Below, piece by piece: positions 3,054 through 64,000 of a stretch of 64,000 bases of DNA (positions within the stretch are counted from its first letter, which is position 1; the number at the start of each line of letters is the position of its first letter). The DNA is from Hexactinellida sp. DTS-2022 (Eukaryota; Porifera; Hexactinellida), in NCBI GenBank assembly GCA_028753945.1, contig JAPNXP010000002.1:2232001-2296000 (forward strand), written 5' to 3'. Made by a program: the position numbers and the translations under genes. The notes beneath the pieces were generated by a model. That model searched no databases, was not told the DNA's origin, and saw nothing but the letters and a program-made list of their open reading frames with translations.

Positions 3054-3395
3054 TTGTACAAGCGAGCAGATATCTACTCTCTATGCTTAGTCCTTTGGGA
3101 GATTTGCAGACGATGTGAGACCGATGGAATTTCTGAGCATAGTGAGCTACCTTATTTACACAGTGTGTCCAGAGAGCCCTCTTTCGATGAGATGAGGGAC
3201 TTGGTACTACTGAGAGGCGAGAGACCCCAAATTCCCAATAGATGGTCCCTTATAAAGGAACTGAATGAGATTTCTGAGATTATTCGGGAATGTTGGAATA
3301 CTGGACAATGTAAAATAGACCAGCTGTCTAACCCTACTACTCTTCCTCATCTCCTAATTAAGAAGAAATTGGTGTGTCTCTATGAACAGTTATGA
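3054..3395 (+). CDS. TGF-beta type I receptor-like kinase, last exon
   Basis: An acceptor (tctatag at 3047-3053) opens a phase-0 exon that continues the kinase C-lobe. It reads YKRADIYSLCLVLWEICRRC, then ELPY, DEMR, RPQIPNRW and IIRECW. These are the conserved C-lobe blocks of TGF-beta family receptors in the right order. The stop TGA at 3393-3395 follows a short tail (LIKKKLVCLYEQL) that matches the family's C-terminal helix, so this is the final exon. The 2,584-bp intron before it carries nested transposons. No further receptor coding sequence is visible downstream. There is no internal stop, so the gene looks functional. Confidence 0.87.
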   Translation: MYKRADIYSLCLVLWEICRRCETDGISEHSELPYLHSVSREPSFDEMRDLVLLRGERPQIPNRWSLIKELNEISEIIRECWNTGQCKIDQLSNPTTLPHLLIKKKLVCLYEQL

Positions 3396-3589
3396 GTTAT
3401 GTTGTACTATTTTAATTGCATATTATTGATATTTTAACACACACTCAAATTTGTAACCGTTCTGTTTAAACATTTTATGCAAATATTATTTTGAACAATC
3501 TTCCTTTTTCATCTTATCAGAGGAAACTTTGCGCACAAATATTAACATTTTCGATATGCACATTTTATTTGAAAGATTATGGGTTCTTG

Positions 3590-32539: not shown

Positions 32540-33870
32540 AATTGATTTCAAATGTTCTCGTTGTATCGAGTTACATTTCGAACTTTATTTGCCAGAATAC
32601 AATTGGCTGCCAGTGAACATATTTTATGAAGAACTATCCAACCTTGTTGTTTGCAACAAATACAATAATTTCTCCAGTTTTCAGACTGAGTTTCTTCAAC
32701 ATAGAGTGTTGTAAGTTTGATTAAAATATTCCGTGATGGTCCTGATAAAAATCGTTGCATTAGAAGCTTCTCACTCTCAATTGCTACATATATTTTCCAC
32801 ACTACAATAATGACATCAATGACAATGTGTGATGGCCATTTGAGAGCTCCTCGATCTATTAATTGGATAAGCTTGTTTTTGTCTTCTATGTCAACTACTT
32901 CCAATTCTCTATCTTGGGTTAACATTGATATACAAGTTTCACACTTTGAACTGGAATTTCGAATAAAGGAATGTACTGCATATCCACCAACGAAGGCGAT
33001 AGATTGTAGAAGTGAAGTACTCAAAGGTATGTTATGAATTGTGGTTAGGACAGAGAGAAATAATTCTACATTTAAAGAATTATCCAGTTGTTCGCTAGGT
33101 TGTGTAGAGTAGGATAGGAAGAATTCTTTGAAGCTGATATACTCAGTAGCCTGTTGTTTCGAGAATAATTTAAGGATGCTGGAAAGTTTGATTCGCCTTT
33201 CACTCTGTAAGATTTGTGTATATGATATATGATATTGTGCACCAGAAATCATGCGATACAATCCGAAATGATGCTCGATTGGATCATTTTGCTATCTTGA
33301 TGTGAGCACATAATCAAAACCACAATTCTCCGTGAGGTGTTGAACGATTTCTATCAAGGCACGACAGCAGTGAGAAAGACTTGTAAAAGTTTGTGGAACT
33401 TTCCATGTTTTCCTTGTCTACATTTCCAAAGGTGAAGCCAGTTAACAATGTGTTTGAGAAATGCAAATCGTTCATCATTTTGCTGAAGAGGTTTGGAAAA
33501 TTCATCATTCAGTCTGATGTGTTTATGTGTTGTGTTAACATTAAATATTTTCCATAGTTTGATTATTTTGTCTAAAAATTCCGGTGTCTTGGATTTTGAG
33601 TTAGCGTGTGTTGCATTGTAAATCGATAGAGCTGCATAAGTTGATTGGCCAAATTTTTAAGGATAAATTGACGTTTTGTCTCTCTAACATGGTAGGCCAG
33701 CAAGCTTTGGAAGATAATCGATGTGCTTGTTTAAGTAAGGAAGACTGTTCACTCTTGTACAAAAGCCTGATGTCCAGAAAACGAGCGATGTGGATCTTGT
33801 TTACATCATCATAATTAGGAAAAATCAATGGGTTTGGATAAGTAAATGTGTGATCATAATCCTTTAAGTT
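32540..33870 (-). pseudogene. P-like transposase relic 2
   Basis: Minus strand, from right: LLYKSEQSSLLKQAHRL and LERQNVNLSLKI (the LERQxVxLxLK block), a degraded middle, then DPIEHHFGLYRMISGAQYH just after an in-frame stop. A long open C-terminal part follows (to 32548) with QILQSERRIKLSS, CISMLTQDRE, LIDRGALKWPS and ILANKVRNVTRY. These are the same blocks, in the same order, as relics 1, 3 and 4. The nonsense codon directly precedes the block that closes the catalytic core. No THAP domain is attached on the 5' side; instead a NOF-like relic abuts it at about 33.87 kb. Confidence 0.78.
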
Positions 33871-34860
33871 GAGCCAGTTGTTTCGAAATGATTTGAGAAT
33901 ATGTACAAAAAACCTCATTCTCCACCGTATTCTCTTCTTAACTTTAAACAATTTTTGAGCCAGTGGGGTAAAAGCAAATTTAAACGCCGCGATCCTATCG
34001 TCTATCTTATTATAAACTGTCCTAATGGAATCAGCAGCTCGTATCCCGGTCTCTGAATTAATTATGCTGTTTAACAATTCTGAACCAATTCTCAACAATC
34101 GCATTACTGTCTGTTGCATTCTCTGACGAATTAACTGTACATAAAATTATCCCACTCCACAACGGTAGCATTGGCATATAATACGTGAGAAGAAATTCAA
34201 CTATCTGGGGATTATAAGATACACTAGGATCAAGTTGCGAATTATCTTCGAAAACTCCATTTTAAACTCCATTGCTGGGGCGCCGGCGACCCGCCGGAGC
34301 AACGGGTGCACAAGTAGAAATGATAAACCAAAACCGGGGGGGGGGGGGGGCAAAGCCCCTGCACCCCCCTTCAAAATTGACCGGAGCAACGGGTGTACCC
34401 GCGCTGCCGTCGCCCTAGCATTGTATTACATAATTTTACACTCAAACACCATTTATTCAGGAAATGTGAGATCTCAGCGGTGCTATGATCGCTACTAATC
34501 ATTTCAGCTAATGGGATCGGACTGGTGGTAAACTCCGGGTGTTGTATTGTAAGGGCATAGTAATATATTTTCTTATAACAGGAAGGGGGTTTAGAAATAA
34601 TAGAAGTCGCATCTAAATTCAAGACAAAATCTTTACTTTTCATTAGTTTTAGAATTTCCAGCTGCTTATAAGAATACATATGAATAATAAAAGGTCATGT
34701 ACGAAATACTGAACATAGCCTGGTAAGGGGGATTCAGGAAGTAGATAACGGAAATACTGCTGGGTTGCTGATATATCTTCCATATATAAATTAGAAAACC
34801 GCTCCGTAGATTTCAATTCAGCTTTAACTTTCCGCAAACAATCTTGTGATTTATGAAATT
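33871..34860 (-). pseudogene. NOF-like (foldback/Rehavkus-type) transposase relic
   Basis: Minus-strand fragments match the protein of the 36.5-44.6 kb element. LNLDATSIIS and PIPLAEMISSDHSTAEISHFLNKW (34440-34650) parallel its LHLDATGSVV and PLAEMLSSNHTNVEI. YYMPMLPLWSGIIL-like sequence, SNAIVENWFRIVKHN and RIAAFKFAFTPLAQKLFK (33950-34190) parallel its C-terminal transposase end. The middle, with the second catalytic D and the CxxH block, is missing, and a 144-bp MITE sits in the gap. No OTU domain is seen; P-like sequence follows instead in the same open frame. Confidence 0.65.
34275..34418. mobile_element. 144-bp GC-rich MITE with 5-bp flanking repeat
   Basis: The ends CTGGGGCGCCGGCGAC and GCTGCCGTCGCCCTAG are imperfect inverse copies, with CCGGAGCAACGGGTG present near both ends. 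CATTG flanks both sides (34270-34274, 34419-34423). The core contains a run of about 16 G. Confidence 0.55.
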
Positions 34861-35140
34861 ACCTTAGCAGAGACCCTGATTACTTGAATTATTAAACTGT
34901 TTATTATAAATTTTTATAATCGAATTATTCACTGATAATTCTCTCATTTTACTACGCTCACTGTAAGATAGATGGCGACTAAATGAACTCTGCCCATCTG
35001 TGTGTTGAAGTGACAAATATCCTTCTGCGTAAATTTGACAAGTATGTCATTATCTACCAAATTAGTGCATCATTAATATAAAATATATAAAATCGACAAT
35101 TTTCAAACTTACAAGACGCTCTTGCTCTGAAGAAAGGACT

Positions 35141-35980
35141 TTTGTATGCCAGAATGACTCGCATGCTAGAATGACACAAACCATGGATATTCACTATCTA
35201 TGCTAGAATGACACGCTCTACTAATTATCTAATGACTGTTAGAACTTCACAGGTTTTTCAGTTCATTCAGACAATTACATTTCACTTTTTGTTATTACTT
35301 CTTTATCTTTAGATTTTAAAATACAGTACTGTACAGAGGCGGATCCAGGGGGGGGGCCCACCCTTCGAAACTGAAATTGACTGAAATTTAGGCTGAAATT
35401 GACAAAATAATTAAGAAACCTCAGCCTCAGTTTGAATTATGGCTCTTTATAAAGAAATTAGCCTTTAAAATGACTTCTGAGTGTATATAACTAAAAAGAA
35501 ATCTGGGGGTTACCCCCAGACTCCCTTATAAGTTGGTTCGCTTTCTCGCATTATTTTTTGGGCCCCCCCTTTTCAACATGTCTGGATCCGCCACTGCTGT
35601 ATTATTGGTGACATAATCACCTTACTAAATTCATAGTATTCTACCAAACGATTTAAATACCGAAAATTGGTGTTAATCCCTATCTTAATGTCTAAATTTT
35701 AAACATACTTTTCCTTTTTCTATCAGCGAATATTGGTTTTAAAATAATGAAATCAAATACGAAATCTTAGAATTCATTAAAACAACTAGTATAATGCTAT
35801 TTTAATATCTAAGGATATAGAATCCATAACAAAAACTGAAATGTAATTGTCTGAATTAACTGAGAAACCTGTGAAGTTCTAACAGTCATTAGATGGTTAG
35901 TAGAGCGTGTCATTCTAGCATAGATAGTGAATATCCATGGTTTGTGTCATTCTAGCATGCGAGTCATTCTGGCATACAAC
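35141..35980. mobile_element. Foldback element with 6-bp flanking repeat
   Basis: Arms of about 165 bp start TTTGTATGCCAGAATGACTC and mirror at GAGTCATTCTGGCATACAAC, with CATTCTAGCAT motifs repeated in each arm. AGGACT flanks both ends (35135-35140, 35981-35986). An unrelated MITE sits in the loop. Confidence 0.7.
35334..35596. mobile_element. MITE with CAGAGGCGGATCC ends
   Basis: TIR CAGAGGCGGATCCAGG mirrors TCTGGATCCGCCACTG, with G-rich GGGGGGGGGCCCACC and GGGCCCCCCC inside. CTGTA flanks both sides (35329-35333, 35597-35601). The TIR type is common among hAT-like MITEs, but the duplication appears to be 5 bp. Confidence 0.6.
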
Positions 35981-36049
35981 AGGACTATTAACCTTGCGAT
36001 TATCAGGTTTCTTGAACCAATAATTTACAAACTTTAGAACACACATCCG

Positions 36050-36531
36050 GGCTTAATCTTTAATTTTTTCAGCAAAAACATTAGTCCAATTACTAACCAA
36101 TGAAGTTATACCAGTAGAATTGGTAATACAAATATTATCCCACTCACTCAGTTCGAGATAAAACTCCCCACAGTTACTACTCAAATTAGTTAGAACTTCA
36201 ATCTCAGAACTCTCTATCACCATTTCTGTTTCAAAGTTGTCAGTTTTAAGTTGGAGAAGAGCCTTTATTCCTTAGATACACCGTCGCGAACATATCGTAC
36301 ATACGCCATAAGTAATGCTTCGCTATCACGAAAGGTTGACTCCTCAAGCTGCAGAGCGAATTATGTCGTTTGTAGATTCAACATTTCAACATTTAAAGCC
36401 ATTTCATTGATACTAAGTTATTCCTAAATGGAATTGATTTAATTACACTAGATGCATGTTAATTTATGACAGTAGAAATGCCCTCGCTTATTGTTGGAAG
36501 AATGAGCTTTTTCCCAAATGTATGAGTTTTC
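36050..36531 (-). pseudogene. ZBED5-like hAT transposase relic, downstream piece
   Basis: Minus-strand segments include ESTFRDSEALLMAYVRYVRDG and LLQLKTDNFETE (36250-36370). They resemble the 'DESTDV...LL.FVRYV..G' catalytic-start block of ZBED5-like hAT proteins. It is cut by the 8-kb foldback/NOF-like element; the BED zinc finger of the same relic lies beyond its other end (44610-45060). Stops are numerous. Confidence 0.5.
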
Positions 36532-37045
36532 ACGAGTGTGAAGTTAGCAGCGAAATCAGCAGCGAAATCCGAGCACACTTCTGTAGCTAAATAAAATGGA
36601 AACTAAGACAAATATCAATTAGTCCTTCAAGATTATAGAGCCTACTTGTGGTACATTGGGCCAATAAATTTTCAAAACATTTGGAGATTGGGTCACCCCA
36701 TGATGAGTTTGCAAAAAAGGTAATGTTTTACGAATTTTTGCATTTGAGTTCTATACTGAGCACACTTGTTAACGTTATACATGCAAACCAAGTCACTTAT
36801 ATAGTTCTCCTTTCGCAAACTTTGAGACTAGTAGCGGTATATTAGCTCAGGAAATTTTCAAACTCATCCGAGATCTGCTTATGCCATGATGACTTTGCTG
36901 ACACATATCTGATTCCCTCTTCCAAACATACATTTTGTTTATTAATATTCTAATACTACAGAAATGTTAATTCTAAAAGTTTCTAATATACTTCTTTCTA
37001 AAACTAAACTGTGTTCTATTCTATTCTACTGTTGCTCCATTTAAA
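36532..37045. repeat. Left inverted arm of the foldback/NOF-like element
   Basis: It contains the terminal block, one copy of the 187-bp unit (36640-36900), and the inner block ending at CTACTGTTGCTCCATT. All three appear inverted in the right arm. Confidence 0.85.
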
Positions 37046-37149
37046 AACGCGGTCATCATGTTTCATATTGACAACCTTAATTAGATATTCTTTCTTTATG
37101 TGATTTTTACTGTGCCGACTATACTATAGTATAGTGGCCCAGTATTGAA

Positions 37150-38495
37150 ATCACTGCCTTTATTTTTATTTTTTTAATTTCTCCGTTGCAGGTGCCCTGG
37201 CCACACCTGTATACATTGAGGACTGAAACTTGGCATGTAGTTGCGGAGTGACCGTCTAATTTGTACCTGGGGTTACGATTTTTTATCAAATGATTTAAAC
37301 ACCTATTTAAACTAATTATAGCTCATAACATGAAATAATTAATATTGAGCATGATAAAATTTACATATACGGATAGAGAATTAAATTCTACACCTTTTCA
37401 CAGTGCACGAATTTTTAAATTGAGTTTCGTTAGTGCCACAATAGAGTTGCAAGTTTCCTTTCTTTACTAACACTTCAGTTCCATTGAAAGTGTTAAATCT
37501 AATTCCATCGTTTCAACTTGTAATAATTATATTGATTTAACTTGTTAAATCTTACTCTATTGTTTCAACTTGCGATAATTAAATTGATTTAACTTATAAA
37601 TTCCAGCTGGTTTCTATTTAATTGTAGTATTACTATATAATGGATACATAAAATAATGTTATACAAGGAATTTGTTGACTCAACTCAACCAACCGTGGAT
37701 AACATTTCTAAAATAAATAACTAATAATATAATTTATTATCAATACATAATGAATGAATGGCATTAAACTCAAGATGGTTTATGATAGAAACAAACCTCA
37801 AATTTATCTACAGTTCCTTGTGGCTCGGATCAATTAACAAATGGATCATGACACCTTGAGGCGTTGATGACTTGGCGAAAAAAAATCCAAAATTGCAGAT
37901 GTGCTGACAGTATGTTCTTTTGGAGGCACTATCAATAACCCACCAACAAAATAGTGCCACCAAAGGAACATGCGTCGGCACAGCTGCAATTTTGGATTTT
38001 TTATTATTATTTTTGTTTGTATTTCTCCGTACAGGATGCCTTGGCCATACCTATATACATTATGGGCTGAAACTTGGCATGTAGGTGCGGAGTGACCGTC
38101 TAATTTGCACGGGGTTACGATTTTTGATTAACTCATTTTGGACACAGTTTTGACACCTTTCAAAATTTGTCTGGCCCATAACTCAAAAAATGTTTTACTA
38201 AACCCCCAATTTTCATTGCACCATTGGATTCACCATAAAATTTTGCGTATGATGGGAGAAGACAAATTTTCACAATGGATTTAATTCATGCCACAAATGG
38301 GGGTTGAAATTTCTTTGTTTACTCACACTTCAGTTCAATTGAAAGTGTTAAATATAATTTTTTTGTTTCAACTTGTAATAAGTATATTAATATAACTTGT
38401 TAAATCTTACTCTATTGATTCAACTTGCGATAATTATATTGATTCACTTGTGAATTCGAGCTGGCTTCTATTCAGTCGCAGAAATACTATACAAT
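37150..38495. repeat. 480-bp direct duplication flanking a small hairpin
   Basis: Blocks at 37180-37640 (CATTGAGGACTGAAACTTGG, GGAGTGACCGTCTAATTTG, TTGAAAGTGTTAAAT, CAACTTGCGATAATT) recur in order at 38030-38490. Between them, 37878-38003 is a foldback with arms of about 52 bp (AAAAATCCAAAATTGCAG on both sides). It may be the promoter/leader region of the transposase gene. Confidence 0.75.
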
Positions 38496-38715
38496 AGATT
38501 GAAACAAATTAATTATTCTGTCTAGTCATATGTATATTGTGACACTAAGTTATTCGATTGTCCTAATTTAGATTAGGCCCTTCATAATTTTTCCACAAAT
38601 TTGCATCTTGAGTGTTGCATCTCGAATTATTTAAAAGACCAGAATTATGTAATCAATAAAGTGCTTCTGTGATATTTGTTGTTTTATTTATAATTGCGTC
38701 CCTTTGCCCGAGATC

Positions 38716-41046
38716 ATGGGCGTAGATTTTTCTGAGAAATTCGAGCAGGCAATCTCAAGATTGGATTTACCATGGTCTGAAATCCGACCCAAACTCTGTT
38801 ATTGTAATTGGCGCGATTCTTTCTCAATTTGGGGTATGTTATCTAAAATAATATTTAATAGGAATCGAACAACTGTGAGGAAAAAGCTAATGCATTTTTG
38901 GCATAACAACAAATGTAATATTCAGGACAAAGTAAATGCGAAGTACGATTCTATGGATTTAGATCAGGATAAAATTCAATTAATTGTTAGTTTTGATCGA
39001 TCAAACTTGGGTAGTATTTTTCTTTCAACAATCCAACAATCAAATGACTCAATTCTGATCTCTACAAGTCCACAAAATAGTCCTCCATCACCGGTTATTA
39101 ATGAAAAAGGATCTGGTATCATTGAAGCTGATGATAATTTATTTTCTTTCAATTCTGAAACTCAGCAACCTAAAGTTCCTAAACGATTTACACTCACTCC
39201 TCAAGAATGGATATCTATTAAGCCAAAAATTGGATGCAACAAATTACTTTCAAATTGGACCTATATTTTCAACCAGAAGCTCAGCGTTTTTTTCCCCTAT
39301 TGTGTAATCAAATTTATATACCACAGAATTAATGTGAATTCGAGTTTTCGCGAACGTCGATTTATTGTAGCTCAAGCAGTTTGCAAATTTGCTGAATGTG
39401 TTAAATTTTCACTTTGGATTGATGAAGCGCCTCAATTTGAATTGGATTATTTGACAGTTAATTTTTTTGCAGAAGCTGTTCTTTCAAATGAACACTTTGA
39501 TAATAGAACTGCATACAGTCGAAAAATATCAGGGCAACAGCGAGAATCAATAGGCGAAAATATGTCAAGCATTTCAGCTATTAATTATCATTATGACCTT
39601 TTCAAGAACTCAGATGCTTTAGAAACTGCCAAGCACGGAAATATGAACCAGTTGCATTCAACGCATGTGCTACGAAAAATTAAGTCTCAACATTTTTCAA
39701 AACGTCGGTTCGATGATGATATGTGGGAGGATATTATTATTACAAAGAAAACATATGACAGCGCAATAAAAGGGAAAGTTATTGATGGGTACCTACAAAA
39801 GATATCAAGATATCCTATTTTCATACACATACATGTATAGTGAGGAACAATTGCTTATCTTAAAGTCAATTGACAAGACTAAATTATCTCTACATTTGGA
39901 TGCAACAGGTTCTGTAGTTAGAAAGATAGATAGAGACCAAAAAAATTTCTATACTATGCTCCAACATTAAAGCACCCAATAATGAAAATAAGCCCTATAC
40001 CCCTTGCTGAGATGCTGAGTAGCAACCATACTAATGTAGAAATTACACACTTTTTACACAAATGGAGCTATGATGTGAAGTTGGTATTGAACTATGAAAT
40101 CTGCCCCGCTCACATCGAAGTGGATTTTAGTTGGGTAATGCTGCATAGTATCTGCAGGATTTTTAATAAGGAACAACTTGAAGATTCTCTTGATGCTTGT
40201 TGGGATTTATTCACAATTCACCACAGAAATTTGAGAAAAATAGAAGTGTACTACATATATGCTCAGCTCATTTGATGCACCGCATCAGCTATAAACTAGA
40301 ACTTAATATGAGAACTAGTAAAGTTGTCAAAAGATGCATTATGTTTGTAATGGCTAGGCTAGTATCGTCAACAAAATTTGAACAACTTTTCATTGCTCTA
40401 TGTATACTGTGTTTGTCGAGAAGAAAATTTCCAGAAATCAACCTTCATCTGAATACAATTGAAAATGCACTGAGATTCGAGGGAAGAAGTTACTAATGAA
40501 TTTGATTATTTAGATGAAATAGATGAAGAACTTCCCAATGACTTTGGAGATGGTAAAAGTTACAAAGATAGATCTCCATTTGGTAGATATTTTGATACTC
40601 TACTAAGAAAATGTCAAGAACGAATTAATGAATTAGAAATTAGATATAAGACCACATATTTTGAGGAAAACAAGAACTATTATCTACCAGCGTTACCTGA
40701 ATTTTTATTCATACATTATATGCCAATATGTCCTATTTGGAGTAGTCTGATTTTAAGTCCAGTTATGTCACCTGGTGAAATCAATGTAAGGCATAGTAAT
40801 GCAATCGTAGAAAATTGGATGATAATTCTTAAATCGAATATTCTTAACAACGTGAATAAACTTAGACTAGGTGATTTCTTAAGAAAATTGCGAGGAGGTC
40901 TAGAAGGGAGAATAAATGCTTTCAAATTTGGATTTGAGCCTATAAGTGACAAAACTTTTAAGAGAACAAAGTATTTTTCTACATTTCAAGATACTACATT
41001 AGTAGAAGAGATCTGGCAAAAGCGAAAGAAAAAAAAATACATATTT
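38716..41046 (+). pseudogene. NOF-like transposase (broken by frameshifts)
   Basis: The ATG at 38716 opens MGVDFSEKFEQAISRLDLPW, a 374-codon frame with TLTPQEWISIKPKIG and HWRINxN-type N-terminal region ending near 39820. The core follows in other frames: YSEEQLLILKSIDKTKLSLH-LDATG (first D), PIPLAEMLSSNHTNVEITHF, HIEVDFSWVML (second D), CSAHLMHRISYKLE (CxxH) and, in the last part, CPIWSSLILSP and SNAIVENWMIILKSN. This DATG...DFSW...CSAH order is that of NOF/Rehavkus-type MULE transposases. Four frame breaks are visible: about 39825 (a CACATACATG slip), 39970, about 40245 and about 40495. So the copy is recently dead rather than ancient. It runs directly into an OTU domain. Confidence 0.75.
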
Positions 41047-41950
41047 TGATAAAAGTATCCCCAAAAACATTAGCTTGAATTTTCTACACAAATCCGGAAG
41101 TGTTAAAACTATCAGTGACAAGAGAAACTATAAACAGACTTTTGAATGTAAAAAAACTCATCCAAATTCTAAAATTAAGAACAAGCCTAATAGCAAAAAA
41201 ATGTTTAAGGACAATATAGCAACAAAAAATAGAATGAGCAAGTCCCTTATACCAGATTTTAGTGCAGAAATATCAAGCGATGACAGTGTTGTGATAAATG
41301 ATAATCCTCAAGGTGTTAGATTATATAATCATGGTCAATTTTGTCTAGGAGATCAAATTTGGCAAAGGGAGAAATGCAAGACTTTGAAACTATCTTATGT
41401 CAGTGGAATATTATATACTAATGAATCAAAAGACAGAAGTTTGGAAATCCGAGAGCTAAGGCCTTCTAAAGAAAAGAGAATTTCTCCTGATGGAAACTGT
41501 CTCTTTAGCTCACTCTCTTATATAATCACTGGTAGCGATCATTTTCACAAAGAAGTTAGGGAACTGTTAGTAGAGAATATGAAAGGTGCTTACCGAGAAA
41601 TATGCAGTGGTTACTGTCACAGTAAAATAGATTTACTATTAGAAGTCCATTGCCATTCAATTGAACAATACATAAATGCAAGTATGATTGATCGAATGGG
41701 ATCGTGGGGTACAGATATGGAACTGTTTTTGGCCGCACAAATATTAAAAACAGACATATTTGTTTATCAAGAGGCTTATCACTGCTGGAATAAATTTTCT
41801 GGTTATGGATTCATAGATAAACGCGATTCACATAAATTAACGGGAAAAAGAATATATATTCAACTATTTATGAACCATTTCCAACCTATTACCAAAGTGA
41901 ATTCAAAGGATGAAGTACAATGCGAATCCGAAACCATACCGAGACTTTAG
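41047..41950 (+). CDS. OTU-type cysteine protease domain of the transposon
   Basis: A 291-codon open frame (41075-41950) has no ATG needed, because it continues the transposase after a nine-A run (41029-41037) that shifts frame. Residues SPDGNCLFSSLSYIITG hold the OTU catalytic D-G-N-C, then HFHKEVRELLVENM, SWGTDMELFLAAQIL and, near the end, LFMNHFQPI with the catalytic His. OTU proteases remove ubiquitin or related modifiers. The stop TAG at 41948 lies exactly at the inner edge of the right inverted arm. The N-terminal 110 residues are basic and lysine-rich, a likely linker. The active-site residues are intact, so the domain looks well preserved although the upstream transposase is broken. 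Confidence 0.8.
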
Positions 41951-44609
41951 ATTAGAGAATGGAGCAACAGTAGAATAGAATGGAACACAGTTTAATTTTA
42001 GAAAGAAGTATATTAGAAACTTTTTGAATTAACATTAAAGTAGTATTAGAATATTAATAAACAAAATGTATGTTTGGAAGAGGGAATCAGATATGTGTCA
42101 GCAAAGTCATCATGGCATAAGCAGATCTCGGATAAGTTTGAAAATTTCCTGAGCTAATATACCGCTACTAGTCTCAAAGTCTGCGAAAGGGGAACTATAT
42201 AAGTGACTTGGTTTGCATTGTATAACGTTAACAAGTGTGCTCAGTATAGAACTCAAATGCCAAAATTTTAGAATATATACATTTTATGCAAAGTCATCAT
42301 GTCATAAGCAGATCTCGGATAAGTTTGAAAATTTCCTGAGCTAATATACCGCTATTAGTCTCAAAGTATGCGAAAGGAGAACTATATAAGTGACTTGGTT
42401 TGCATTGTATAACGTTAACAAGTGTGCTCAGTATAGAACTCAAATGCCAAAATTTTAGAATATATACATTTTATGCAAAGTCATCATGTCATAAGCAGAT
42501 CTCGGATAAGTTTGAAAATTTCCTGAGCTAATACACCGCTACTAGTCTCAAAGTCTGCGAAAGGAGAACTATATAAGTGACTTGGTTTGCATTGTATAAC
42601 GTTGACAAGTGTGCTCAGTATAGAACTTAAATGTAGGGATGCACCGGATCCACTTTTTTGGATCCGGCCGTATCCGGATCTCACCGGATCCTGAATTTTC
42701 GGATCCGGATCCGCTTGGAAAGAAAATACAGTTATATTAAGTTTGTAGTAATTGATATATGGTAAAGTAAAACTTCGTTAGTATGAAGACATTTAAATTG
42801 TCTCAATCTGTCAATCAGAGATATTTAATTAATTTATGTCTCCTATTACTTCATGAAAGTTATAATAAATTTGAATTGGCGTAGAGTATGTCACTATTGA
42901 ATAGTTTTTGTAAGTAATTAGAGGTTACTTGGATTAATAGAATCAATTAAATAGTTGATACACATACAGATTCGGATCCGGTGGATCCGGTAACCTCATC
43001 TCGCACCGGCCGGATCCCGGATCCTCCACAAATGGGGAAATCCGGCCGGATCCGGAACCGGATCCAGGATCCGGTGCACCTCTACTTAAATGCCAAAATT
43101 TATGAATATATACATTTTATGCAAAGTCATCGTGGCATAAGCAGATCTCAGATAAGTTTGATAATTTCCTGAGCTAATATACCGCTACTAGTCTCAAAGT
43201 CTGCGAAAGGAGAACTATATAAGTGACTTGGTTTGCATTGTATAACGTTAACAAGTGTGCTCAGTATAGAACTTAAATGCCAAAATTTATGAATATATAC
43301 ATTTTATGCAAAGTCATCATGGCATAAGCAGATCTCGGATAAGTTTGAAAATTTCCTGAGCTAATATACCGCTACTAGTCTCAAAGTCTGCGAAAGGAGA
43401 ACTATATAAGTGACTTGGTTTGCATTGTATAACGTTAACAAGTGTGCTCAGTATAGAACTCAAATGCCAAAATTTTAGAATATATACATTTTATGCAAAG
43501 TCATCGTGGCATAAGCAGATCTCAGATAAGTTTGATAATTTCCTGAGCTAATATACCGCTACTAGTCTCAAAGTCTGCGAAAGGAGAACTATATAAGTGA
43601 CTTGGTTTGCATTGTATAACGTTAACAAGTGTGCTCAGTATAGAACTTAAATGCCAAAATTTATGAATATATACATTTTATGCAAAGTCATCATGGCATA
43701 AGCAGATCTCGGATAAGTTTGAAAATTTCCTGAGCTAATATACCGCTACTAGTCTCAAAGTCTGGCAAAGGAGAACTATATAAGTGACTTGGTTTGCATT
43801 GTATAACGTTAACAAGTGTGCTCAGTATAGAACTCAAATGCCAAAATTTTAGAATATATACATTTTATGCAAAGTCATCGTGGCATAAGCAGATCTCAGA
43901 TAAGTTTGATAATTTCCTGAGCTAATATACCGCTACTAGTCTCAAAGTCTGCGAAAGGAGAACTATATAAGTGACTTGGTTTGCATTGTATAACGTTAAC
44001 AAGTGTGCTCAGTATAGAACTTAAATGCCAAAATTTATGAATATATACATTTTATGCAAAGTCATCATGGCATAAGCAGATCTCGGATAAGTTTGAAAAT
44101 TTCCTGAGCTAATATACCGCTACTAGTCTCAAAGTCTGGCAAAGGAGAACTATATAAGTGACTTGGTTTGCAGTGTTAACGTTAACGAGTGTGCTCAGTA
44201 TAGAACTTAAATGCCAAAATTTATGAATATATACATTTTATGCAAAGTCATCATGGCACAAGCAGATCTCAGATAAGTTTGATAATTTCCTGAGCTAATA
44301 TACCGCTACTAGTCTCAAAGTCTGCGAAAGGAGAACTATATAAGTGACTTGGTTTGCATTGTATAACGTTTACAAGTGTGCTCAGTATAGAACTCAAATG
44401 CCAAAATTCTTAAAACATTACCTTTTTTGCAAACTCATCATGGGGTGACCCAATCTCAAAATGTTTTGAAAATTTAATGTGCCAATGTACCACAAGTAGG
44501 CTCTATTAATCTTGGATGACTAATTGATATTTGTCTTAGTTTCCATTTTATTAGCTACAGAAGTGTGCTCGGATTTCGCTACTAACTTCGCTGCTAACTT
44601 CACACTCGT
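41950..44609. repeat. Right inverted arm with about ten tandem 185-189 bp units
   Basis: Units begin at GCAAAGTCATC near 42090, 42288, 42474, 43117, 43306, 43494, 43683, 43868, 44056 and 44241. Each carries CATAAGCAGATCTC, GAGCTAATATACCGCTACTA and AGTGACTTGGTTTGCA. From 43117 on the units alternate between a CTCAGAT...GATAATTT type and a CTCGGAT...GAAAATTT type, making a dimeric higher-order repeat. A hAT MITE interrupts the third unit. Confidence 0.88.
42634..43084. mobile_element. hAT MITE, GGATCC family (451 bp)
   Basis: The ends TAGGGATGCACCGGATCC and GGATCCGGTGCACCTCTA are inverse copies, with an exact 8-bp duplication CTTAAATG (42626-42633, 43085-43092). GGATCCGG motifs crowd both ends. 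The middle (CTCAATCTGTCAATCAGAG on) is shared with the longer element at 46847-50899. Confidence 0.92.
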
Positions 44610-45060
44610 TGAGTTTTCCACATTATCCATTAAAAGATAAATATTGTAAGATGCTTCAAGGCCAGCGTAATTTATTAAAAGAACTTTGTTAAACATTCCA
44701 TCAATTAACTACTATATGTAAACTGCTTGTGTAGAACCTGGAAATACTTTAGATCCTTGTATTTTTTATGAGGGTGTTTCTTTGTAAAGTGTTTATACAT
44801 TCGTGAAAGTTTCATAGCTTCATTAGAAAATTCTTTATTGCAGAGTAAACAAAAGGGTAACTGTTGATTAGTTGGTGAAGCCATGGGTGGAAAAGTGGGG
44901 GGGGGGAGGAGCAGGGGCCCCCCCCCCCAAATTTACAATTTGGCCCCATGTTGTAATATGTACAACCGATAATTGATAGGTCTCGCCCCCCCAGAATTTT
45001 AGGAATTTTTAGATAATTTTCCGCTTATGGGTGAAGCGATGAACCCAAATTTCAGGTAAT
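44610..45060 (-). pseudogene. ZBED5-like hAT relic, BED zinc-finger piece
   Basis: Minus strand reads YLKFGFIASPTN, then (after removing a 148-bp MITE) QLPFCLLCNKEFSNEAMKLS and KHFTKKHPHKKYKDLKYF. The spacing C-x2-C...H-x4-H with YLKFGF in front is the BED finger of ZBED5/SCAND3-like hAT transposases. It is 5'-truncated at about 45060 and 3'-interrupted at 44609 by the foldback/NOF-like element. Confidence 0.65.
44882..45029. mobile_element. 148-bp hAT-like MITE in the BED finger
   Basis: The ends CATGGGTGGAAAA and TTTTCCGCTTATG are imperfect inverse copies. An exact 8-bp duplication GGTGAAGC lies at 44874-44881 and 45030-45037. The body is dominated by G and C homopolymer runs. Confidence 0.8.
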
Positions 45061-52554: not shown

Positions 52555-53658
52555 ATGTCAAAGCAATACAGATGTATTACTAGCTCGGCAAACAGGCCTT
52601 GCACAGAACAGTCAGACCAAATAATTTGGAAACTATGTATTCTATGTTAATGTGATACAAAAGAGCAATTGCAGATTCCTTGTCCATCAACAAGGACTAA
52701 TGATAGAGGTGTTGGATATGCTTCAATTGCTCATCATATAATTCAGTTTAATGATCTTAATGCCATGCCATCTACATTTAAACTTAATGTTGACAAGCTG
52801 GATGGTGGATCTGGAATAGAAGATACCTTAAGGTCCCACAGTGCAGCATGGCACAAATCATGTAGAAATAAAATAAATAATTTAAAACTAGACCGTGCAC
52901 TAAAGCGAAACCAAGATGTATTGCCAGTATATTTCAGTCCTATTAAAATTAGAAGATTGAACTCAGATGGTGTTCAGTCAATGTATGTCTGTATTTTCTG
53001 TGATAAAACATCAGATCATAGTAAAGACACCCTTCACAAGGCTTCTACTTTCGAGCTTGACTTTAAAGTGAGGAAGTGTGCTACAGATCTTCAGGATACA
53101 AAGTTGTTGGCAAAGCTAGCTGGTGGAGATCTGATTGCAATTGATGCTCTATACCACACCAAATGTCTATTGAATTTATATGACAGAGCAAAACAAGCTG
53201 CCAATAACCAAAGTAAAGGCACTGATAATGAACAGTCTCTAAAAGCAATAGCCTTTGCTCAGCTAGTTCAATACATAGAAGAATTCCGTGATTCTGAGGA
53301 ATGTGCTCCAGTTTTTAATCTGATGGATTTGTCAAAACTGTATTCTGCTAGACTACATGAGCTTGGTGTCAACTCTGAAGTACACAGTACAAGACGAAAA
53401 GAGAAAATTGTATCAGCCATACCAGATCTCCCAGCAAATCACCAAGGACGGAATGTTGTGTTCTTGTTTAACAGGGATATTGGAAGAGCCATAAAACAAG
53501 CTTGTGACTTAGACACGGATGCTCTTACCTTGGCAAAAGCTGCTAAAATACTACGTAGAGATATGTTTGAGCATAGTCAGGAATTATTTAATGGGTCATT
53601 CATACCGGGTTGTCAGCAAGAATCAGTTCCACTATCTATGCTTTACTGGTCAGTATGA
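52555..53658 (+). pseudogene. Academ-like element protein, N-terminal third
   Basis: The ATG at 52555 starts MSKQYRCITSSANRPC and WKLCILC; a TAA at 52648 interrupts, and the frame continues open to 53658. Zinc-binding-like pairs are CILC, CIFCDK (about residue 108 of the open part) with LHKASTFELD, and YHTKCLLNLYDR. This is the N-terminal region of a protein type common in metazoan genomes as uncharacterised transposon ORFs. The context of the stop suggests CAA to TAA. The frame ends LSMLYWSV just where the next ORF, one base behind, takes up SMILDGPSIKDQ, so the two are one protein split by a single-base deletion. Confidence 0.7.
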
Positions 53659-56600
53659 TTCTAGATGGTCCTAGCATCAAAGATCAGTCTACAAAGGAAC
53701 ATCCACATGTACCTGCCTGTTTAACTATTGCACAGCTTATGGCATTCAACACTGTTAAAACCAGGTATTCTACAACCCAGAGACACCATATAGATAGAGA
53801 GACACCATTACCCATTTATTTTGCTCTCAAAATCCACGGTGAAAGTAGGAACCGTACACTGATTGACAAATTTCACAAAATTGGGCTGTGTATATCATAT
53901 GACAGAGTGCTTAGTATCTCAACAGATATTGGCAATAGTGTATGTAGTCAATATGAACAAGACGGAGTTGTATGCCCACCAAGCTTGGTTATGAATATAT
54001 TCACAACTGCTTCTGTGGACAATATAGACCATAATCCGAGCTCCACAACTGCAAAAGATTCATTTCATGGAACAGGAATTTCTATCATGCAGCATCCAAC
54101 GGCAGAGTATAGGGGAACACCTCGACAGTTACCAGTTTTCAACGAACAGACCAAGTCATCAAAATCTAATCCATCTCTTCCCACTTCCTACACTGAAGTA
54201 CTACCAGCAGTATTGAAAACAAATGATCCCATTGTACCACATCTTAGAACAGTGAAGTTGGACAAAGTGGTATCTGATCCATTAGCCAATGAATACAAGT
54301 GGTTACAACATTTCATGGAGTTGTTTGAAAAGCCAGAAGTTAGCAAAGATGAATGGGTTTCATGGGCTGCATATGAAGCATCCTTACAGCCTTTGTTTAC
54401 AGATGGTACTACTAATGTTGCTCTGATGCCATTATTTTTGGGAAATGCCCACTCTGTAGCGATGATCTTGCACTCTATGAATGTTGTTAAAGCAGTTATT
54501 CATCACATAAATCCATCTCAGATTCCAGTTCTTGTCATGGACCAACCATTGTTTGCATTGGCCAAGAAGATTCAGTGGAATTTTCCTGACATATTGGGTG
54601 AAGATAAATTTTTCGTTATGTCTGGTGGCCTCCATATAGAGATGGTATCACTGAAGATACTTGGTGATTGGCTACAAGGTAGTGGATGGAGCAATCTCCT
54701 ATATACAGCAGGAATTGCTTCAAGTGGAATTTGTGATTCATTTCTCAAAGCAACACATGTGACTAGGACAAGACATGCTCACCAGGTGACAGCAGCAGCA
54801 CTCTATATTTTGCAACATAGGGCACACCAGGAATTTGCAGCGACAGCCGTAGCAGACTACATAGAGTTTGAACCTTGGTGTATCAAAAAGTCAGAGGAAC
54901 AGCCTCAATTTCTCTATTGGTCAAAGGTGTTGCAACTAGAATTGTGTTTACTTAAGCTTGTTGGTTCCATTAGAAAAGGTCATTTTGCTGATTACTGTGA
55001 AGCAATAGCACATCTTATTCCATGGACATTTTCACTTGACCACACAAACTATGCTAGGTGGCTGTCTGTTCACATAAGAGATATGTGTTCCTTAGTGGAG
55101 GAGCATCCTTCTCTATATCAAGAGTTCACTGCTGGTAGATTTGTATCTCACAAGACTTCAAAGCCATTTTCTGGTATGGCTTTGGATCAGGCCCATGAGC
55201 AAGTCAACTCAATGGTTAAAGGGGATGGTGGGGCAGTTGGACTGACAGAAAATGCAACTGCACTTCATCGGTGGATGGTTTCTGGTCCTGAAATTTCACG
55301 AATGATTCAACAGTTTGAGGGTCTGTCAACGACAATGTCTTCTAAGCATCATGAGCAGATACCAAGTGTCCAGGCTAAATTTATTCATGAAGTTGAAGCT
55401 GTTGTTAACACGATTCTGGACTTTGGAAATCCATTTACTGAAGATAGTGGGGATCTTCTCACCTTAGATACAAAAAATATTCTAGCTTCTGACGTTGTTA
55501 AATCTGTTCAAATGGTTCCAAAGGTTGGAGATGATCAATATCAGTCTTTTGTGAAAGAAAGATTCATCGACAGATCAAAATCAATAAATGATCCCATTAA
55601 AAGAAACAACCTGCCACTATTATCAGTGAAAAAGACTTCACAGAAGCAAAAATCTCAAGTAAAAGCTTTGAAGGATAATTGCAGTTTATTCTCCAGATTA
55701 TATATTGCGTGCCAGTCTAGAGATGGGGACCTCGAGGATTTTTTTAAGCATGAAAATCAACCTTGGCCACCGTCTTTAGCTAAACTGGAAGAAGTCAGGT
55801 CTGGTACCAAGGCAGATCTCCTTCCCTGTTTGGAGAAACTCATGCAAGCTCCAGAACACTGTCCACCAGTGGATGCATTGATACTGGATGGCGCTGTTAT
55901 AGTACAGATGTTAGTTCCAAAGCAGGTAAACACATTTGGAGAATATTTTGAGAAAATCTTCAAGCCATACATATTGAAGCAACTTCAGACTGTTGTTAGA
56001 CTGGATGTAATATGGGATGTTTATAGACAGGACAGCCTGAAAGGAGCTACAAGAGAAAACAGAGGCACTGGGATCCGAAGAAGAGTGAAACTTACTACCC
56101 ACATTCCAGGAAACTGGCAAAGTTTCCTACGTGTAAATGAAAACAAAACTGAGTTGTTCCATTTATTAGCTGAGCAAATAACCTCTATTAAAATGGATGG
56201 AAAAGAAATCTATTGTACTTTGGAAGATCAAGTTCTATCCTTACCAAACCTCACACAAGATGACAAGGTCCGAATAGAGCCATGCACACATGAGGAGGCT
56301 GATACAAGAATCATGCTTCATGTTGCAGATGCTGCCGAACATGGTTTCAAAAAAATTATGGTCAGAACAGTGGATACTGATGTTGTTGTCATACTCATTT
56401 CCCACATACAAGACATTTTGGCTCAAGAGGTATGGATAGCATTTGGTATAGGTAAGAATTACCGTTTTATTTCTGCCCATGAAATCGCTTCCAAACTGGG
56501 AACAAGCAAGTCTAAAGCACTTTTGATGTTCCATGCCATCACAGGATGTGATATGGTTTCTTTCTTTTCTGGTAGAGGTAAGAAGACAGCTTGGAATACC

Positions 56601-57092
56601 TGGGATGCATTTCCACAAGTTACAGATGCTTTTGCAAATCTGTCAAAAACACCATTTGAAATTTCCACAGCTATCATGGATGTGGTGCAAAGATTCGTTG
56701 TAATTTGGTATGACCGAACAAGTGAACTGTCTAAAGTGAATGAGTCACGCCAACAATTATTCTCAAAAGGAAAAGTAATTGAAAATATCCCACCCACGGA
56801 GGAAGCTTTGAAACAGTATGTTAAGCGAGCAGCATACATCGCAGGATATGTATGGGGACAATCACTGGTAAAAGACCCGAAAATCCCAAGCCCAGCTGAT
56901 TGGGGATGGATAATGTCAGATGGTAATTGGAAGCCATTTTGGACAGAACTACCACAGGCACAAAAAGTGTGCTATGAACTAATCAGCTGCAACTGTAAGA
57001 AGGCATGCAGAGGTCTGTGCAAGTGTGCCAAGGCCAGCCTTAACTGTACTGCACTTTGCAGCTGTGGAGGAAAATGCTTTGACGAAAGCTAG
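53610..57092 (+). CDS. Academ-like element protein, C-terminal two thirds (1,160 codons)
   Basis: One uninterrupted frame. Its first ~17 codons overlap the upstream frame and are probably not natural start sequence; similarity begins at SMILDGPSIKDQ. Blocks typical of this protein family follow: RETPLPIYFALKIHG, IGLCISYDRVLSIS, TASVDNIDHNPSSTT, DSFHGTGISIMQHP, LPLFLGNAHSVAMILHSMNV, HIEMVSLKILGD and KATHVTRTRHAHQVTAAALY. Near residue 894 HEEADTRIMLH, then VRTVDTDVVVILIS, resemble the acidic I-region of XPG/FEN1-type nucleases. The C-terminus is a cysteine cluster (CNCKKACRGLCKCAK to CSCGGKC), probably a zinc-binding CXC-type module. Its length and openness indicate recent activity. Confidence 0.72.
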   Translation: MSARISSTIYALLVSMILDGPSIKDQSTKEHPHVPACLTIAQLMAFNTVKTRYSTTQRHHIDRETPLPIYFALKIHGESRNRTLIDKFHKIGLCISYDRVLSISTDIGNSVCSQYEQDGVVCPPSLVMNIFTTASVDNIDHNPSSTTAKDSFHGTGISIMQHPTAEYRGTPRQLPVFNEQTKSSKSNPSLPTSYTEVLPAVLKTNDPIVPHLRTVKLDKVVSDPLANEYKWLQHFMELFEKPEVSKDEWVSWAAYEASLQPLFTDGTTNVALMPLFLGNAHSVAMILHSMNVVKAVIHHINPSQIPVLVMDQPLFALAKKIQWNFPDILGEDKFFVMSGGLHIEMVSLKILGDWLQGSGWSNLLYTAGIASSGICDSFLKATHVTRTRHAHQVTAAALYILQHRAHQEFAATAVADYIEFEPWCIKKSEEQPQFLYWSKVLQLELCLLKLVGSIRKGHFADYCEAIAHLIPWTFSLDHTNYARWLSVHIRDMCSLVEEHPSLYQEFTAGRFVSHKTSKPFSGMALDQAHEQVNSMVKGDGGAVGLTENATALHRWMVSGPEISRMIQQFEGLSTTMSSKHHEQIPSVQAKFIHEVEAVVNTILDFGNPFTEDSGDLLTLDTKNILASDVVKSVQMVPKVGDDQYQSFVKERFIDRSKSINDPIKRNNLPLLSVKKTSQKQKSQVKALKDNCSLFSRLYIACQSRDGDLEDFFKHENQPWPPSLAKLEEVRSGTKADLLPCLEKLMQAPEHCPPVDALILDGAVIVQMLVPKQVNTFGEYFEKIFKPYILKQLQTVVRLDVIWDVYRQDSLKGATRENRGTGIRRRVKLTTHIPGNWQSFLRVNENKTELFHLLAEQITSIKMDGKEIYCTLEDQVLSLPNLTQDDKVRIEPCTHEEADTRIMLHVADAAEHGFKKIMVRTVDTDVVVILISHIQDILAQEVWIAFGIGKNYRFISAHEIASKLGTSKSKALLMFHAITGCDMVSFFSGRGKKTAWNTWDAFPQVTDAFANLSKTPFEISTAIMDVVQRFVVIWYDRTSELSKVNESRQQLFSKGKVIENIPPTEEALKQYVKRAAYIAGYVWGQSLVKDPKIPSPADWGWIMSDGNWKPFWTELPQAQKVCYELISCNCKKACRGLCKCAKASLNCTALCSCGGKCFDES

Positions 57093-61958: not shown

Positions 61959-62352
61959 AGTCGATCTATATACAACGTTCTTTGAAATGTAGTCGATCTA
62001 TCGACAACCTCCTTAGAAATGGAGTCGATCATTTGGCCATTGTTCATTTTCGATCTATCGACAGCTAAAGAATTCGATCTAATACAGGCGCCCCTTATAA
62101 TAAATGTTTACTCATAGCCTACTCTATATATGTCCTGACAGTAACCTAGAAAATGTGGACCAAGGATGAAGGAGAAGATGGTAATATTTATCCAACCACA
62201 ATATTTAATTTCAAAAATAATACCACATTAATTAGAAATATTCTTGAAATATATACAATTATTGATCATATTTTATTCCAAACTCTTCTATTGACGTAAA
62301 ATCTCATCCTTTTAATTTCGCTTTGGTATTTTATTCATATTAGCTTCTATTC

Positions 62353-64000
62353 ATGCCTAACTCGTGTTCTGTCCCCGGATGCAAGAGCAACTACAACCCA
62401 GATGACCATGTTCCCTGTGTTCAAGATGCCTCAAAATCCACCAACCCTGAATCATGCCTGGACATACGCTCTTCGTCGCGAGGATATCGGTGACCTGAAG
62501 GTGGTCTATGTATGTATCAACCATTTTCAGAAAGAAGACATAGACTACACTTTCCAAGCCCCAAGAGGAGATAGTACTTTTACTGAAGTACCGCGGGCAA
62601 AGCCAAAGCTGAAGGAAGGCGATGTACCAAGTTTACTAACTCGCTGCCCAGCATATTACTTATCCAAACCTTACAAACGGAATCGCTTCTCATACGATGC
62701 AAAAGAGGAAGAATTGATGAACCAAACACTACAACTCAGCTTGAGATCCGAGAGTCAAGAGTAAGAGAAGTTTGTGGTAACTCTCCACAGGACTTGAAAG
62801 ATAAGTTAACCTTGATTTATTTACCTTATAGTTGGTTGGTGTGGTTCCGTAATGAAAGCAACATAACGTTTGTTCTCGCTAAAATGGCTGAAAAAATATC
62901 TCAGTAGATTTGTACCTTGAAATCAATGCTTATTTATCCACCTCAGCCTATTTTAATGGACAGAGTATATCCGTTTCCATTGCTTCAATTCTTGGCATCC
63001 GAGAAATTGAATCTGTTTTGCAAGAACTTGCTTTAAAATACAACTCTAGTTCTTATTGTGATTATCCCCTTAAGTTCGGTTGTGCATCCTTTGAAGATGT
63101 ATGTCAATTATATAATTCAGAAAGAACAAGTTTATCCAAGTTAGCTCCTCATTTGACTATGGAGTCATGTTTTCCGTCTAGCATAGAGCGTCAAAATGTA
63201 AAACTGGTTTTGAAAGTCGTTAACGAATTAACAATATCTGCGCTAACTAGCTATCCAGAATATAGAAATAATACTCCTGAGTTTGTTGATACCCTTCTTA
63301 CTGTTTGGAAATTATTCAACGTGAACACACCATATAAAGGAATACGTTTGAACGATAATTTCTCTAGACCTAGACCTTTGACTTTTTATGACGAGCGATT
63401 TCTATTTTTGACTCGTGTAGTTTTGGTTAGATGCTTGGCAAACTTTACTAGAAAAAATTGGCAAACTGAGTAAACAAACACACACCAGTTTTAGACATGC
63501 TTGTATTGCCTTACCACAAATTACCAATCATTTGACTCAATCTTGTGGCTTTACATATCTGTGGTCCTCCTTTCTACAGACGGATCCCTTGGAACACCAT
63601 TTCGGTCTATATCGTATGATGTCGGGTTCTAATTATCACATCTATCTTCAAATCCTTGAACCGAGCGTCGACTTAAACTTTCTAGCATAATGAAACATAT
63701 TTACTGACCAACAAGACACTTCCTTTCAATCTATTCAGTCATTTGTTAAGTCATTTTCTTCTCCGTATAGCGTATTCGACTACTGGTGAGTTCAATTTGG
63801 AGCCATTTCTTGATGAGATTAATGATCTATCAACAATAGATTGTGGTTCATAGTTGCTTCAATCATTAGCCTTTATTGCAGGCTATACTGTCCATCAGTA
63901 CCTGAAACAAACAAAACCGTGTCATGTCTGTCTACATATGCTAATAGTTGATATAGAATTTCTGCTTGATTTAGACCTGGACTCTCAGTATAAACTTCTG
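62353..64000 (+). pseudogene. P-like (THAP9/P-element family) transposase relic 4, 3' partial
   Basis: ATG at 62353 starts MPNSCSVPGCKSNYNPDD (THAP C-x4-C half). A one-base shift near 62415 moves into a 120-codon frame with VFKMPQNPP, AWTYALRRED (THAP W) and VCINHFQKEDID (C-x2-H). From 62910 the transposase reads ISVSIASILGIREIESVL, LYNSERTSLSKLAPHLT, SIERQNVKLVLKVVNELTIS and DERFLFLTRVVLVR. After 63480 it gives FRHACIALPQITNHL, DPLEHHFGLYRMMSGSNYH and CLHMLIVDIEF. It carries the longest N-terminal stretch of the four relics and several frameshifts. The C-terminus lies beyond the window. Confidence 0.8.

Follow-up and report, generated by a model that had tools for sequence, protein, structure and literature searches.

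Does a foldback DNA transposon of a hexactinellid sponge encode a transposase and an OTU protease in one protein, and what would such a protease contribute to transposition? The question is raised by positions 36532-44609 of the window, by which we mean the whole 64,000-nucleotide stretch analysed here (Hexactinellida sp. DTS-2022, contig JAPNXP010000002.1, positions 2,232,001 to 2,296,000 of the forward strand). These positions hold a foldback DNA transposon of 8.1 kb. Foldback elements are a source of inversions and other rearrangements, and the workings of their transposases and their need for host factors are poorly known. The predicted proteins leave little doubt that this transposon family encodes a single protein in which a DDE-type transposase core is followed by a C-terminal OTU domain.

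The transposase and the OTU domain share one reading frame in other copies

The original prediction, made from the window, described a near-complete element whose coding region runs from the transposase core into an OTU domain. The motifs that it named, DATG, DFSW, CSAH, DGNC and NHF, can all be read in the window copy, and the structure is indeed near-complete, but the window's own gene is dead. In the list of open reading frames (ORFs) the coding region is split into 38653-39840, 39934-40275, 40194-40496, 40474-41049 and 41006-41950, with the features below all on the + strand. The N-terminal transposase frame (38653-39840, 395 codons) matches the ORF start in L031, L030 and other copies and is then interrupted. 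DATG, with the first catalytic Asp of the DDE core, lies at 39899-39910. The ORF list and the comparison of copies define a core fragment at 39934-40275, which contains DFSW with the second catalytic Asp (40123-40134) and CSAH, the CxxH motif between the second Asp and the Glu (40260-40271). A C-terminal transposase fragment at 40474-41049, defined by the ORF list and the alignment, carries a conserved ENW with the candidate catalytic Glu. The last open frame (41006-41950, 314 codons) comprises a basic linker and the OTU protease domain, with the catalytic Asp and Cys in DGNC at 41489-41500 and the catalytic His in NHF at 41873-41881. The window copy is inactive, its coding frame being interrupted several times. 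Continuity from transposase to OTU, which the original prediction ascribed to this copy, was therefore judged from the open frames of other copies.

We searched the genome (112.4 Mb, 18 contigs) for such copies. DNA searches found eight further young copies of the window subfamily at 95-98% DNA identity, plus older relatives. In one of the young copies, L033, an unbroken frame of 819 aa extends from the transposase core through the whole OTU and needs no mending; the frames of the remaining young copies are interrupted. Open two-domain frames were also found in more distant subfamilies, namely an ATG-started frame of 1023 aa in L052 (~50% identity), a frame of 1255 aa in the L054 family, and those of L055, L056 and L057. 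Two-domain frames reach 1349 aa at ~35% identity, and some occur in many 99-100% identical copies. A protein search returned 31 matches spanning query residue <=44 to >=776, of which 23 were stop-free, both counts being lower bounds with 55 of 1130 candidates scored. Identity to the query drops to 34-36% among these long matches. Taken at the level of sequence, the transposase-OTU fusion is old and conserved.

OTU sequence follows the transposase at most loci

A search with a 500-aa transposase core, in which 86 of 686 candidates were scored, listed 89 matches. Merging C1:14203211 with C1:14204423 and dropping six rows that were fragments of counted copies left 82 loci. Among the matches listed, OTU evidence lay on the same strand and within 3.5 kb at 62 of the 82 loci, a few of which may owe it to an adjoining element. 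Downstream DNA of the remaining 20 loci (1.3-2.2 kb each for 19, L045 being the other) held the OTU, whole or in part, in 15. OTU sequence is thus found downstream at 77/82 core loci. The original prediction had named two findings that would speak against a fusion, namely other copies lacking the OTU region and an interruption by a stop, in every copy, of the frame that joins the two domains. Neither describes the family, given the 77 loci with an OTU and the 23 stop-free matches out of 31.

The domain belongs to the OTU family

Placement of the domain among OTU proteases, the third point on which the original prediction was to be judged, was confirmed by profile searches. Window positions 41006-41947 match Pfam PF02338 with an E-value of 1.3e-9 and 39.1 bits against a cut-off of 23.3. 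Five open-frame relatives score 24.8-39.3 bits, L033 scores 37.6 and L027 44.7. A profile of eight OTU segments from the family gave 12 PDB matches at E<=1, of which 11 were OTU domains, the viral chains included, and one was a cystatin (0.19). The matches included OTUD1 (3.2e-6), OTUD5 (4.8e-5), OTUD3 (0.0014), OTU2 (0.0081) and OTU1 (0.036), plus viral OTUs. The best-matched OTU chains are presumably ubiquitin-cutting enzymes. OTU enzymes characteristically target ubiquitin and Ulp1 targets SUMO; SUMO would for this reason be a less likely target of the element's OTU. An NCBIfam scan, and an Rfam scan of the window, gave nothing useful.

The active sites are invariant and the OTU is under purifying selection

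We aligned 12 proteins picked for their long open frames. No variation was seen in any of the 12 at the D, D, C, H and E positions of the transposase or at the D, C and H positions of the OTU, which include the residues in DATG, DFSW, CSAH, DGNC and NHF of the window. In L033 we take the DDE/CxxH residues to be D130, D205, C251/H254 and E439.

Selection was estimated as the ratio of non-synonymous to synonymous rates (dN/dS). Ten of the 66 protein pairs had dS <2 in both domains. Most of these were near-identical (L080 and L084 are near-duplicates of L054 and L083) and two were informative. In L056/L081 the ratio was 0.018 for the OTU and 0.215 for the transposase, the OTU holding 14 synonymous differences and 1 non-synonymous difference (p 5.5e-9). 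In L054/L083 it was 0.129 for the OTU and 0.21 for the transposase, with 37.75 synonymous and 25.25 non-synonymous differences in the OTU (p 1.1e-11). The OTU had the lowest ratio of the three regions in both pairs. On the point estimates of the ratios in these two pairs, purifying selection acts more strongly on the OTU than on the transposase.

Trees of the transposase and of the OTU have the same deep split (support 100 and 100), and the order inside the halves is partly weak. Linker identity between subfamilies is only 13-36%. This pattern is as expected for two working domains on a flexible tether, apparently joined once, before the subfamilies diverged.

Shared element ends and a recently amplified sister family

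The exact 9-bp duplications first reported for the window element were recovered. TGAGTTTTC flanks it at 36523-36531 on the left and, as an exact match, at 44610-44618 on the right, and has only one further occurrence on the same strand of the window. Both termini are inverted ACGAGTGTGAAGTTAGC. The arms pair by blastn on the minus strand over 369 bp at 94.6% (outer pairing, 36532-36898 with 44242-44609) and over 474 bp at 85.9% (inner pairing, 36571-37041 with 41958-42429). The left (5') arm is ~510 bp long (36532-37041, +) and starts with ACGAGTGTGAAGTTAGC. The right (3') arm (41958-44609, -), as read from arm pairing and comparison of copies, is the same sequence enlarged by a tandem array with a 187-bp unit. 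The tandem-repeat inverted arms of the original prediction hold for this side only: Tandem Repeats Finder (TRF) gave 2.9 copies at 42101-42633 and 7.3 copies at 43084-44443, and found no tandem array in the left arm. The array is split by a nested insert of 451 bp (42634-43084) resembling a miniature inverted-repeat transposable element (MITE), for which inverted ends TAGGGATGCACC / GGTGCACCTCTA and an 8-bp duplication CTTAAATG were read by eye; we take it to be hAT-like. In the 5' non-coding region, an insertion or partial duplication of ~888 bp (37110-37997, +) is missing from both other copies compared, L033 and L035, which align 36531-37109 straight to 37998 onward.

Directly left of the element, 33793-36250 (-) holds decayed remains of the same transposase from a different subfamily, in pieces that are 57-95% identical to L056. 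No OTU part was found for this relic within the window.

Ends were read in ten other elements: seven had an exact 9-bp duplication, one (on C3) had a duplication with one mismatch, and two had none. The L054 element (C4 1926156-1932531) is bounded by ACGAGTGTTATCTTAGC and by an exact 9-bp duplication, AGTGAAATT. Its inverted ends of 339 bp are 99% identical, its 3' arm holds a 333-bp tandem repeat in two copies, and its single ORF of 1255 aa, 34% identical in protein to L033, is the only frame >200 aa on that strand. About 1.74 kb of its 5' part has 99-100% matches at ten other places, and its 3' end has 14 other such matches, of which two lie on C16 within 7 kb of each other, which gives about 13 further elements. 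These near-identical matches of the 5' part and the 3' end point to recent amplification of the L054 family.

Distant subfamilies have the terminus ACGAGTGTnnnnTTAGC in common. In degenerate form (17 bp, 13 fixed bases) it occurs at 114 + 118 sites in the genome, against 0 + 0 for a reversed control. Together with the eight further copies at 95-98% identity, this places the element beyond chance. Among the first 100 of the 232 sites, neighbours within 15 kb formed 32 pairs pointing inward, one outward and one in the same direction. A listed transposase core is enclosed by 17 of the 32 inward pairs, including those of the L054, L055 and window subfamilies. The same inverted ends bound an 826-bp element at C7:1291076-1291901, which lacks a clear duplication and is likely a non-autonomous foldback derivative.

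What the OTU may do for the element

The pairing of the two domains, kept by selection, suggests that the element manipulates the host ubiquitin system to move. The window feature is probably a dead copy of a foldback transposon that was autonomous and moved by cut and paste, with a transposase-linker-OTU protein whose OTU would act in cis. That the OTU in cis would be a deubiquitinase serving transposition we give an even chance. Intact relatives encode all parts in one protein: first the DDE-type transposase (D, D, CxxH, E), then a basic linker that evolves fast, and at the C terminus the OTU cysteine protease. The transposase would bind the ACGAGTGTnnnnTTAGC ends within the long arms and insert the element with a 9-bp stagger. 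The tethered OTU would remove ubiquitin, most likely from its own transposase or else from proteins bound where the DNA has been cut, so that the transposition complex might be shielded from proteasomal removal, or repair at the donor and target sites tuned. That the OTU cleaves ubiquitin, what it would act on and how this would affect transposition we infer from OTU biochemistry and from the precedent of the Helitrons. Precedents for deubiquitinases in transposons are given in PMC9741609 and PMC2836005.

A number of observations weigh against this explanation. Both informative selection pairs, the only two available, are intact frames that had been chosen for being intact. In the open-frame copy L085, DGNC is changed to DRNC and the OTU ratios are 0.52 and 1.05, on very few changes. 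The OTU ratio of an older copy, L019, is 1.53. Young copies of the window subfamily have transposase ratios of 0.54-1.56 against L033 where computable, as expected of dead copies. Stops interrupt 8 of the 31 long two-domain matches and all of four more that start at residue 122-164. Five core loci (L086, L088, L097, L098 and L099) have no OTU in the DNA read; the family protein ends within or after the transposase in them, and in L088 the end of the transposase is joined to the extreme C-terminal tail, which is an internal deletion. Finally, not every OTU-fold enzyme is a deubiquitinase.

Instead of serving the transposase to which it is tethered, the OTU could act in trans on host chromatin or repair targets, such as ubiquitinated histones and repair or silencing factors, the fusion merely delivering it. 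Modules of this class are also found on transposition enzymes of unrelated kinds, both in the Ginger1-type (rve) element of this genome and in Helitrons (PMC9741609), and activation of repair factors by such domains has been proposed (PMC2836005). The fusion in open-frame copies fits cis and trans targets equally. We regard action in trans as a serious possibility, albeit an unlikely one. We give little credence to self-processing, in which the OTU would cut the fusion protein at the linker and free a mature transposase. Self-processing is known for OTU-fold proteases of certain positive-strand RNA viruses, the order transposase-linker-protease would suit such a role, and the linker is long and evolves fast between conserved domains. 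However, a flexible tether would evolve as fast, no conserved cleavage site is evident in a linker so divergent between subfamilies, and the top profile matches are to OTUs that cut ubiquitin.

An OTU without catalysis, acting as a ubiquitin-binding or dimerisation domain, would have a parallel in the inactive transposon-derived VTD domain of insects (PMC9741609), but the Asp, Cys and His that are invariant in all 12 aligned proteins make this reading very improbable. The OTU could also be a passenger, a captured fragment of a host gene with no role in the element, as captured fragments are frequent in plant Mutator-type elements (PMC6431247). Its presence in frame across subfamilies at ~35% identity, its invariant active site, its having the lowest dN/dS in both informative pairs and its occurrence at 77/82 core loci largely refute this reading, to which we assign next to no probability. 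On the same grounds (in-frame relatives, active site, loci and low dN/dS), a one-off capture of the OTU in a dead copy was ruled out.

A related OTU in a Ginger1-type element

A search of the genome with PF02338 gave 440 first-look candidates, of which 150 were scored; all 150 lay above the cut-off, and 35 of them had a listed transposase core no more than 5 kb away. A large set of OTUs, with a 227-aa frame, belongs to a Ginger1-type element. In L106 (2905-5809, -) an rve integrase lies upstream of the 227-aa OTU (E 1e-10), which is in a separate frame. The rve match, with E 1.3e-6 and 29.1 bits, falls below the Pfam cut-off of 32.6. A GPY-like motif was also seen in this element, and its meaning is taken from PMC2836005. 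The Ginger1-type OTU part has 35 matching places in the genome, L105 included.

Between the Ginger1-type and the foldback OTU the match covers 184 query residues (E 5.6e-16) and takes in a pre-OTU segment with WQxxxC. When this segment was added to the family profile, the score of the Ginger1-type sequence rose from 73.0 to 89.6 bits. Two other genomic OTUs, which seem to resemble the cellular OTUD5 and OTUD7 types, score only 22.6 and 11.2 bits. Among seven non-foldback sequences the top score for the catalytic domain was that of L110, whose 90.6 bits exceed the 73.0 bits of the Ginger1 type. The match of both the OTU and the pre-OTU segment suggests that an OTU cassette may have been exchanged between transposon classes. 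A broader proposal, on which we are doubtful and which we put forward tentatively, is that the WQxxxC segment and the OTU passed between Ginger1-type and foldback DDE lineages, that the module has become an obligatory and selected part of a foldback transposase, and that transposition by cut and paste in these animals would thus generally involve the removal of ubiquitin.

A second association of an OTU, with a canonical Mutator-like element (MULE) in L105, was considered and rejected. The ORFs lie side by side, but the 2-kb MULE is inserted into a separate OTU-bearing repeat, and another copy of that repeat, L106, is the Ginger1-type element. In L105, positions 1-1127 and 3063-3501 are the Ginger1-type repeat, and the nested 2-kb MULE has FLYWCH and MULE domains in 478 aa. 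Canonical MULE transposases gave 961 candidates in the genome, of which 150 were scored, and OTU frames are likewise very abundant for 112 Mb.

Other features of the window

Three further features lie on the + strand of the window. Positions 2-484 encode a kinase fragment like that of TGF-beta type I receptors (PDB match, E 4.3e-34), which marks the host as an animal. A THAP domain at 62300-62761 (E 6.6e-7) is possibly part of a P-type transposon or of a host gene. Two long overlapping open frames of 335 and 1166 aa at 52651-57089 have no Pfam match at E<=0.01.

Comparison with known systems

Rehavkus elements, known from arthropods and annelids, have a 9-bp duplication, one ORF, a PHD finger and a minisatellite before the 3' repeat (PMC6446971). 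The foldback family resembles Rehavkus and FB-NOF in its 9-bp duplication, its single ORF (1255 aa in the L054 element; the 1023-aa ATG-started ORF of L052) and its minisatellite at the 3' inverted repeat (the 187-bp array of the window; the 333-bp repeat in two copies of L054). Rehavkus-1_TC of Tribolium measures 9.5 kb, and its inverted termini contain a tandem unit of 164 bp (PMC10218199), compared with 8.1 kb and 187 bp for the window element. Compared by description only, Rehavkus differs in its reported PHD finger, where the window family has an OTU. No Pfam match to a PHD finger was found in the window pieces or in L033, L027, L052, L054 (with its N-terminus), L055, L056, L057 and L031, the N-termini of L055-L057 lying outside the scanned DNA.

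The DDE triad with a CxxH between the second D and the E, together with the 9-bp duplication, agrees with the MULE superfamily. The foldback proteins scanned had no match to the Pfam MULE domain PF10551 at E<=1 in one scan and E<=10 in another, and none of 150 listed genomic PF10551 matches starts within 3 kb of any of the 82 core loci. Alignment by hhalign with one canonical MULE (L105) gave a weak sequence link to canonical MULEs (P 0.061, probability 0.9%), though the first two Asp were co-aligned. The likeness to NOF/Rehavkus drawn in the original prediction holds for the architecture, and we do not file the element as Rehavkus because it shows no PHD finger and no Pfam MULE match, and because Rehavkus is known here by description only. 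Tm1, a Mutator/Foldback element of root-knot nematodes, likewise has composite foldback-like inverted repeats and 9-bp duplications, and its transposase is Phantom-like (PMC3169594). Assignment to Helitrons or P elements found no supporting domain in the Pfam scans, and searches for relatives in viral and prokaryotic collections gave 18 and 33 pattern matches, none confirmed.

The term OTU is absent from the main text of the papers on Rehavkus (PMC6446971) and Tm1 (PMC3169594), and from the main text of PMC13359780 and PMC10045372. Among the papers listed by full-text searches we saw none that describes an OTU as part of a transposase of foldback, Rehavkus or Mutator type; these searches did not extend to Repbase Reports or to papers behind subscription, and a prior database note is possible.

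OTU and related proteases are found on other transposition enzymes. One such system is Ginger1, which has a C-terminal OTU or Ulp1 on a DDE enzyme (PMC2836005, Table 1) and so resembles the foldback protein in its C-terminal OTU. In Ginger1, however, the integrase is Gypsy-like (rve) and the target sites are CCGG/CCGT, with short duplications, whereas the foldback elements have varied 9-bp duplications, and no rve match was found by Pfam in the foldback proteins scanned. Helitrons and Helentrons are alike in carrying a deubiquitinase-type domain, OTU or VTD, on the transposition protein; transposon VTD domains cut ubiquitin chains, and OTU activity was not assayed there (PMC9741609). Unlike the foldback elements, Helitrons are rolling-circle elements with Rep/helicase and without a DDE transposase. 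They are not known to make a target duplication. KI-MULE and Mutator elements, with examples cited from hydra, lancelet and plants, are Mutator-type transposons associated with a ubiquitin-like protease (cited in PMC2836005); in them the protease is Ulp1, of the SUMO protease family, and in the foldback family it is an OTU. A conserved deubiquitinase-type domain on intact, recently amplified foldback transposases offers a concrete, testable enzyme activity, and the older proposal of ubiquitin control in transposition (PMC2836005) would become testable via one active-site change. Beside Ginger1, Helitrons and Ulp1-bearing Mutator elements, the foldback family would be a further class of transposon with a ubiquitin-type protease.

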